Positions 32,900 to 63,919 of a DNA stretch of 64,000 nucleotides are shown piece by piece (position 1 is the first letter of the stretch; every line of letters starts with the position of its first letter). Made by a program: the position numbers and the translations under genes. A model generated the notes under the pieces. The model did not search any database. It saw only the letters and a list, made by a program, of their open reading frames with translations, and was not told where the DNA came from. Origin of the DNA: Symbiodinium natans (lineage: Eukaryota; Sar; Dinophyceae; Suessiales; Symbiodiniaceae); assembly GCA_905221605.1 (NCBI GenBank), contig CAJNDS010000036.1, positions 577,160 through 641,159 of the forward strand. The letters run 5' to 3'.

Positions 32900-32951
32900 G
32901 CGCACCTCGCGGACATCCACGGTGAACTTGATCGCATCAGCGGCCGCCTTC
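32900..32951 (-). CDS. RNR large subunit exon: [11 protein letters not shown]
   Basis: Acceptor AAG-G. Encodes [17 protein letters not shown], the last segment clearly alignable to the family. A TAA follows in frame at 32,882; I end the exon at a GC donor before it, because the family normally has a further tail with a Cys pair. The end is uncertain. Confidence 0.85.

Positions 32952-63919: not shown

Follow-up and report, generated by a model that had tools for sequence, protein, structure and literature searches.

How the spliceosome finds exons of 22–90 nt amid kilobases of repeat is an open puzzle, and a 64,000-nt stretch of the Symbiodinium natans genome (hereafter the window; contig C36:577,160–641,159, in an assembly of 759 Mb and 2543 contigs) poses it in a single gene. 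An initial annotation, made from the letters alone, had described a ribonucleotide reductase (RNR) alpha gene broken into micro-exons among introns that hold arrays of TTTAGGG. The second puzzle touched by the locus is the tolerance of dinoflagellates for large numbers of introns whose donors are GC or GA. Here, we show that the minus strand of the window holds only the 3′ half of an intact-looking class I RNR large-subunit (RRM1-type) gene, that the genome contains further copies, and that the orientation of the arrays is linked to splice sites, all three of which the initial annotation had not seen. The source genome is, by its own content, that of a dinoflagellate: exact matches to the DinoSL sequence number 104 + 101 in the assembly, against 0 for a reversed-pattern control.

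Results

Motif scans placed the RNR motifs on the minus strand of the window. The template for spliced protein-to-DNA alignment was an intron-poor RNR copy from the same genome (C1876), on which the aligner had been tried beforehand with a template taken from a viral RNR frame. From residue ~384 on, the template was aligned against window positions 26,001–64,000, minus strand, with GT, GC or GA favoured as donors and AG as acceptors. The result is 24 exons of 24–87 nt that join in frame, as the initial annotation had read them, into 380 residues that show no gap, stop or frameshift; 289/380 residues are identical to the template, and none of template residues 431–810 is skipped. The alignment score is 1146 for the true template, compared with 125.6 for a reversed template, 105.8 for a shuffled template and 113.2 for the opposite strand, all on the same DNA. 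The product spliced from the window exons alone matches PF02867 (E 2.9e-119, profile positions 209–523 of 523), and its top solved-structure matches are the RNR large subunits 3hnc (2.8e-146) and 1zyz (1e-142), which we take to be the human and yeast proteins. Splicing the exons in silico and aligning them, the first check that the initial annotation had proposed, returns an RRM1-type protein, and its claim of RNR alpha motifs in protein order over 31 kb is borne out. The product contains NLCTE, VCNLAS, GMYYLR and YACVGC (the C-terminal CxxC); presumably the catalytic and redox residues are the cysteines of NLCTE and CNLAS, the YY pair and the C-terminal CxxC.

Read along the minus strand, the window gene starts with the NLCTE exon 1 (63,867–63,919; the 5′ boundary is 63,919 in the whole-gene model and 63,917 in the window-only model) and the CNLAS exon 2 (63,495–63,581). 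Exon 2 has a sense CCCTAAA-type array a few nucleotides ahead of its acceptor (63,588–63,640) and a sense TTTAGGG/TTTGGGG array a few nucleotides past its donor (63,458–63,488), both read from the sequence and with approximate ends. The alignment then gives exons 3 (63,050–63,083), 4 (62,460–62,490), 5 (61,783–61,818), 6 (60,594–60,636) and 7 (60,060–60,103), followed by the longest intron, of 14,587 nt (45,473–60,059). Beyond it lie exons 8 (45,427–45,472), 9 (44,752–44,794), 10 (44,087–44,114), 11 (42,571–42,610), 12 (42,138–42,163, 26 nt), 13 (41,227–41,298, found by both motif scan and alignment), 14 (40,257–40,305), 15 (39,390–39,446), 16 (38,723–38,782), 17 (37,431–37,454, 24 nt) and 18 (36,471–36,519). 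A sense TTTAGGG tandem repeat of 18.3 copies (36,313–36,440; CCCTAAA on the plus strand) lies in the intron that follows exon 18, 30 nt from its 5′ splice site. Exons 19 (34,932–34,975), 20 (34,067–34,110), 21 (33,729–33,767, with GMYYLR) and 22 (32,906–32,951) complete the range 32,900–63,919 to which the initial annotation had confined the gene. Outside that range are exon 23 (32,005–32,076) and exon 24 (30,836–30,910), whose C-terminal CxxC tail, YACVGCSA, is followed directly by the stop codon TAA (30,833–30,835), similar to the CVNCSA ends of the intron-poor C1876 and C1992 copies. The earlier count of 20 exons was thus slightly low, since 22 lie within its range and two more precede the stop; of its exon sizes, 28–87 nt, the upper limit holds and the lower does not, the shortest exons being 24 and 26 nt.

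The N-terminal half of the gene was aligned upstream, at C36:641,026–666,739, from template residue 2, and an in-frame ATG (MAAQ), read from the sequence, stands directly ahead of the first aligned exon. The whole gene extends over ~58.7 kb and has at least 45 exons with a median of 45 nt; the introns that do not cross N (n = 42) have a median of 814 nt and range from 256 to 14,587 nt. One intron, between 658,285 and 660,448, contains a 272-nt inverted repeat that is 97% identical. Template residues ~204–233 and 363–422, both outside the window, have no match in the gene. Because both stretches fall in intervals that hold N runs (C36 649,668–654,667 and 642,068–642,167), the true exon number exceeds 45 by the content of the gaps, and exon ends beside the two N gaps are unreliable in the model. 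The SSCFLL cysteine of the N-terminal half, which we take to be a functional residue of class I RNR, has its position in the interval that contains the N run 649,668–654,667; it is present in a second micro-exon copy, on contig C648.

A decayed or scattered pseudogene could also leave coding fragments spread over tens of kilobases, and the two protein stretches without a match would fit it. However, both stretches lie in N-run intervals, all residues expected in the window are present, and the divergence between the C36 and C648 copies is dominated by third codon positions (18.5, 14.1 and 47.1% at positions 1, 2 and 3; NG86 dN 0.178 and dS 1.34, with dS near saturation). The gapless alignment and the third-position divergence refute a pseudogene for the window, which holds none of the scattered fragments with alignment gaps that the initial annotation had named as the finding that would overturn it; for the locus as a whole we regard it as extremely improbable. 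Judged from these substitutions, the C36 gene is under purifying selection.

A PF02867 profile search of the assembly found at least 16 matching places. Two are further micro-exon copies. The C648 model has 39 exons from ATG to stop, although a 2-nt ‘exon’ among them is artefactual and the junction preceding exon 10 uncertain, and the C2245 model has 39 exons as far as an N run; exon medians are 45 nt in C36 and 57 and 54 nt in the other two. At least five copies are intron-poor (two each on C1876 and C1992 and one on C2387), with one open frame that spans the domain from ~50–67 to 516–523 of 523. The two that were modelled in full have two introns each, at identical positions, and the C2387 frame diverges from the others near the C-terminus. 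These intron-poor copies are likely to be retrocopies. Over the part of the template that can be read in every one of the three micro-exon genes, exact shared intron positions number 5, 8 and 8 per gene pair, against 0.5–0.6 expected if positions were uniform; the distinct positions total 76, of which two are common to all. A few introns are therefore old or at preferred sites and most differ, which implies heavy intron gain and/or loss, and the three copies beside the intron-poor ones offer an internal comparison for it.

All 118 introns of the three genes read G[CTA]..AG, which the aligner favoured, and in 94% the next base is G, to which the aligner was neutral. The first exon base after the acceptor is G in 40/44 introns of C36, 36/38 of C648 and 37/38 of C2245; because this G follows AG although only AG was rewarded, we take the exon boundaries as real. 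Donors in C36 are GC in 24, GT in 11 and GA in 9 of 44 introns. Over the 118 introns the extended donor preference is G[C/A/T]NCCYYGG, not GTAAG, with G[CTA]NCCT at 22/118 donors compared with 2.6% of interior G[CTA], and AGC is enriched in the final 10 nt ahead of acceptors.

The telomere-type repeats are abundant and internal to the chromosome sequence. The window contains 661 occurrences of (TTTAGGG)2, where 0.03 would be expected, and itself lies at 577–641 kb of a 1,126-kb contig; TTTAGGG is reported as the dinoflagellate terminal repeat in PMC11453091. Exact arrays (≥14 nt) are present in 103/118 introns of the three genes and in none of the exons of the gene models, whereas 15/118 introns have no exact array and 6 have none at up to 2 mismatches in 14. 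Among the 103 array-bearing introns, 42% have an array no more than 50 nt from the 5′ end and 48% have one equally close to the 3′ end, compared with 19–20% when intron contents were rotated, which substantiates the earlier remark that several arrays end close to exons. Both orientations occur within one intron in 24/42 introns of C36 and in 16/38 of each of the other two genes. Arrays cover 9–14% of the micro-exon regions versus 0–3.2% of the 10-kb stretches round intron-poor copies; in random 1-kb genome samples they were found in 6 of 17 readable ones and cover 3.7% of bases. Upstream of the gene, at C36 667–701 kb, GC falls to 42% and exact arrays cover 4.4%. Another repeat in the window is a 132-bp tandem repeat of 2.8 copies (22,377–22,755).

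For the counts of orientation, at most 2 mismatches were allowed per 14 nt of array (482 arrays in 118 introns), and an array was called proximal if its centre lay within 150 nt of a splice site. Among the proximal arrays on the 5′ side, sense TTTAGGG outnumbers CCCTAAA by 71 to 25, and among those on the 3′ side the ratio is inverted, at 27 to 82 (Fisher p 1.2e-12). At 150–300 nt the TTTAGGG/CCCTAAA counts are 33/21 on the 5′ side and 26/30 on the 3′ side, and arrays more than 300 nt from both intron ends are unoriented (66/84). The direction is equal in all three genes, although their intron positions mostly differ: on the 5′ side and then the 3′ side, C36 has 31/9 and 9/37, C648 20/10 and 9/21, and C2245 20/6 and 9/24. 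On a coverage basis (100 introns of at least 300 nt), TTTAGGG reaches 0.36–0.41 and CCCTAAA 0.11–0.13 at 40–90 nt from the 5′ splice site, and CCCTAAA reaches 0.39–0.45 and TTTAGGG 0.08–0.10 at 30–90 nt from the 3′ splice site. Array-masked DNA 12–60 nt from splice sites is weakly skewed in the same direction (+0.15 at 5′, −0.15 at 3′), consistent with a general preference that the arrays exaggerate. Since 25/96 and 27/109 of the proximal arrays are in the ‘wrong’ orientation, and some introns have no exact array at all, the arrays cannot be obligatory.

Such a polarity could be built in at insertion, in either orientation, if the arrays were terminal or subterminal inverted repeats (TTTAGGG...CCCTAAA) of introner transposons. 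Introns derived from introners, with both inverted and direct repeats at their ends, are described for dinoflagellates in PMC7789003, PMC10666404 and PMC9860276. In the RNR genes, direct repeats of at least 5 nt at intron ends occur in 13/38 introns of C648 against 9% of mismatched pairs, in 21% against 8% for C2245 and in 12% against 8% for C36, and the mostly different intron positions of the copies also count for introners. Intron 2 of C648 (C648:44,146–44,292, 147 nt) carries a 31-nt inverted repeat near its ends together with AGGCTT direct repeats and is apparently a young MITE-type introner. Given this intron, and direct repeats above controls in two of the three genes, a share of the introns probably derives from introners. 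Orientation at one end of an intron, however, is independent of that at the other. The first and last arrays are TTTAGGG/CCCTAAA in 43 introns, CCCTAAA/CCCTAAA in 15, TTTAGGG/TTTAGGG in 11 and CCCTAAA/TTTAGGG in 4 (OR 1.04, p 1.0); a model of independent ends fits (p 0.95), and a mixture of inverted pairs plus random ends fits worse (p 0.03). Once telomere repeats were masked, inverted repeats between the two ends were no better than those of mismatched pairs (mean 10.0 versus 10.1; the top 1% included 2/118 introns). The 118 masked introns did not group into families either: matches between different introns were short, at up to 92 nt, with 32 matches listed in all. Own-pair versus swapped-pair end alignments and the orientation association thus disfavour telomeric inverted repeats of introners as the main cause, and we consider that origin of the polarity unlikely.

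The arrays could instead pair as RNA, UUUAGGG with CCCUAAA, either across the intron, bringing the splice sites together, or across the exon, placing it in a loop. They are complementary, and many introns bear both orientations, as given above. Between the ends of an intron there is no preference for complementarity, as the odds ratio near 1 indicates, and introns with CCCTAAA first and TTTAGGG last, equally able to pair, are rare (4 versus 43), so a stem across the intron is disfavoured. Across exons, the nearest arrays are CCCTAAA then TTTAGGG in 45 cases, the reverse in 8, both CCCTAAA in 10 and both TTTAGGG in 10, and flanking pairs lean towards complementarity (OR 3.6, p 0.055 for a 150-nt limit; 3.1, p 0.12 for 100 nt; 2.6, p 0.13 for 200 nt). 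We give pairing, in either form, a small probability.

Pairs of arrays were also counted genome-wide, as exact pairs of doubled heptamers. CCCTAAAx2-N(80–110)-TTTAGGGx2 occurs 83,227 times and TTTAGGGx2-N(80–110)-CCCTAAAx2 35,412 times, where the pattern is strand-symmetric and overlapping matches in long arrays are counted for both types; at gaps of 400–430 nt the two counts are 136,865 and 138,014. The CCCTAAA-to-TTTAGGG excess is clearest at gaps of 110–200 nt, with ratios of 2.5 and 2.3 in the RNR genes and 2.0 and 1.9 around them, and is mixed at 300–800 nt in and around these genes. In the DNA around the RNR genes, gaps below 110 nt run opposite to the genome-wide count at 80–110 nt, with 117 TTTAGGG-to-CCCTAAA pairs versus 24 of CCCTAAA-to-TTTAGGG. 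The effect is therefore short-range and not confined to RNR genes, and local regions vary.

The reversed excess around the RNR genes bears on a further possibility, that the introns mark former DNA breaks whose two sides were healed by telomerase before being re-joined, leaving TTTAGGG(n)-CCCTAAA(n). Such a head-to-head fusion predicts the orientation seen at intron ends, the 117 to 24 excess at gaps up to 110 nt agrees with it, and insertion of telomeric sequence where breaks were repaired has been described for mammals (PMC7215372). However, healed breaks would predict the orientation at any distance, whereas outermost arrays more than 150 nt from a splice site are unoriented (13/12 on the 5′ side, 9/6 on the 3′ side), the two orientations are equal genome-wide at 400–430 nt, and the genome-wide excess at 80–110 nt runs the opposite way. 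Nor is there an enrichment of close head-to-head pairs within the RNR genes (gaps of 0–60 nt: 1 TTTAGGG-to-CCCTAAA and 4 of the reverse). Healed breaks are accordingly an improbable source of the polarity in our estimate.

That exons lie in the gaps between arrays is established for the RNR genes; elsewhere, coding sequence was recognised by eye in 2 of 28 CCCTAAA-to-TTTAGGG gaps (40–260 nt, read in window positions 1–30,000). An ABCD-family ABC transporter exon, co-oriented with the RNR gene, lies at 24,643–24,759 on the minus strand, and a possible second one, read by eye, at 20,542–20,658 on the same strand. A query of the two peptides joined matches ‘ABC transporter D family member 1’ (1.9e-11), in an alignment of essentially the first peptide only, and both peptides sit in CCCTAAA-to-TTTAGGG gaps, which were the places inspected. 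For kinesin, 98 matches included 42 with an open frame of up to 120 aa (counted by hand), and 40 exons were used. An array lies within 200 nt at 13/40 of these exons, with 5 CCCTAAA and 1 TTTAGGG to the left and 9 TTTAGGG and 6 CCCTAAA to the right, which is the RNR-like direction and not significant (p 0.15). Among five of seven tRNA-synthetase matches, two have arrays; the nearest on the left is CCCTAAA in both, and on the right CCCTAAA or TTTAGGG.

Discussion

Transposons, break healing and RNA pairing all either couple one intron end to the other or operate regardless of distance, and they are therefore disfavoured by the independence of the ends and by the loss of orientation with distance. 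The independence favours a local effect at each splice site, and such an effect is the most likely reading given that pairwise inverted repeats and intron families are missing among the 118 introns and that distant arrays are unoriented. We put it at about an even chance that a local splice-site effect, in which the arrays bracket micro-exons for splicing, is the main cause of the polarity.

Under a local splice-site effect, interstitial telomeric arrays would arise throughout introns, and close to a splice site they would be retained mainly in the orientation that suits splicing, with each intron end acting separately. G-runs and UAGGG near donors are hnRNP sites in animals, and on the 5′ side UUUAGGG repeats past the donor could, by analogy, serve as a G-run or UAGGG-type intron mark for an hnRNP-like protein. 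On the 3′ side, G-free CCCUAAA ahead of the acceptor may provide a tract without AG/G decoys and with a CUAAA that resembles a branch point. Together the two marks would bracket each micro-exon and allow the spliceosome to find exons of 22–93 nt in tens of kilobases.

The decoy component of this proposal can be compared with the sequence ahead of acceptors. The acceptor is AG/G; each sense TTTAGGG contains such a decoy and CCCTAAA has no G. The AGG-free stretch ahead of real acceptors has a median of 84.5 nt versus 34 nt at random interior positions (p 1.3e-10), and the final 10 nt of introns seldom contain AGG (0.03 per intron versus ~0.25 further off). However, AGT-free stretches are longer too (134 versus 71.5, p 1.7e-7), and in the 16 introns with no array within 150 nt the AGG-free excess is not significant (69.5 versus 46, p 0.17), so the avoidance of decoys may simply follow from the arrays. 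As the whole cause of the polarity it is partly supported, yet confounded by the arrays and not specific to AGG. The lean towards complementary arrays across exons (OR 2.6–3.6) is likewise not predicted by a purely local model.

Extended to the genome, the same idea would make telomere repeats a general splicing punctuation, a polar code with CCCTAAA before and TTTAGGG after tiny exons that enables genes of dozens of micro-exons; the pair counts hint at this wider role, to which we assign a somewhat less than even chance. In either form, the polar, exon-scale association of telomere repeats with splice sites is a concrete candidate signal for exon finding. If the arrays act in splicing, telomeric sequence has a new role; if they do not, the orientation bias still needs an explanation.

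What is new here is the polar, splice-site-oriented placement of telomeric arrays, whereas introners with inverted repeats and GC and GA donors were already known. Splice-site-linked polarity of telomeric arrays was not found in mostly open-access literature on telomeric repeats, introners, Symbiodiniaceae, microexons and splicing, as represented by titles and the starts of abstracts among the matches listed and by passages of PMC10666404, PMC11453091, PMC9860276, PMC7789003 and PMC12730881.

The encoded protein is that of eukaryotic RRM1/RNR1, with which it shares the structure matches 3hnc and 1zyz, PF02867, NLCTE, CNLAS, GMYYLR and the C-terminal CxxC; unlike in those genes, the coding sequence of the C36 gene is split into at least 45 micro-exons over 58.7 kb. 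The GC, GT and GA donors and AG/G acceptors are those of intron-rich dinoflagellate genes, including Symbiodiniaceae. Published S. natans splice sites are GT 23.6, GC 58, GA 18.4 and AGG 97.1% (PMC10666404), a mix that the donors of the RNR introns resemble, and the same source gives mean exon lengths of 98.7–120.4 bp in the Symbiodiniaceae that it tabulates, compared with the medians of 45, 57 and 54 nt here. With the introners of Amoebophrya, P. cordatum and Symbiodinium, the RNR introns share inverted repeats near both intron ends and, in some, border direct repeats, but the inverted sequence here is the generic telomeric heptamer, the ends are not matched pairwise and the 118 introns form no families. 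Interstitial telomeric sequences of plants and animals likewise consist of internal TTTAGGG arrays; in contrast to these, the arrays of the RNR genes are oriented according to the splice sites, a pattern that is echoed genome-wide.
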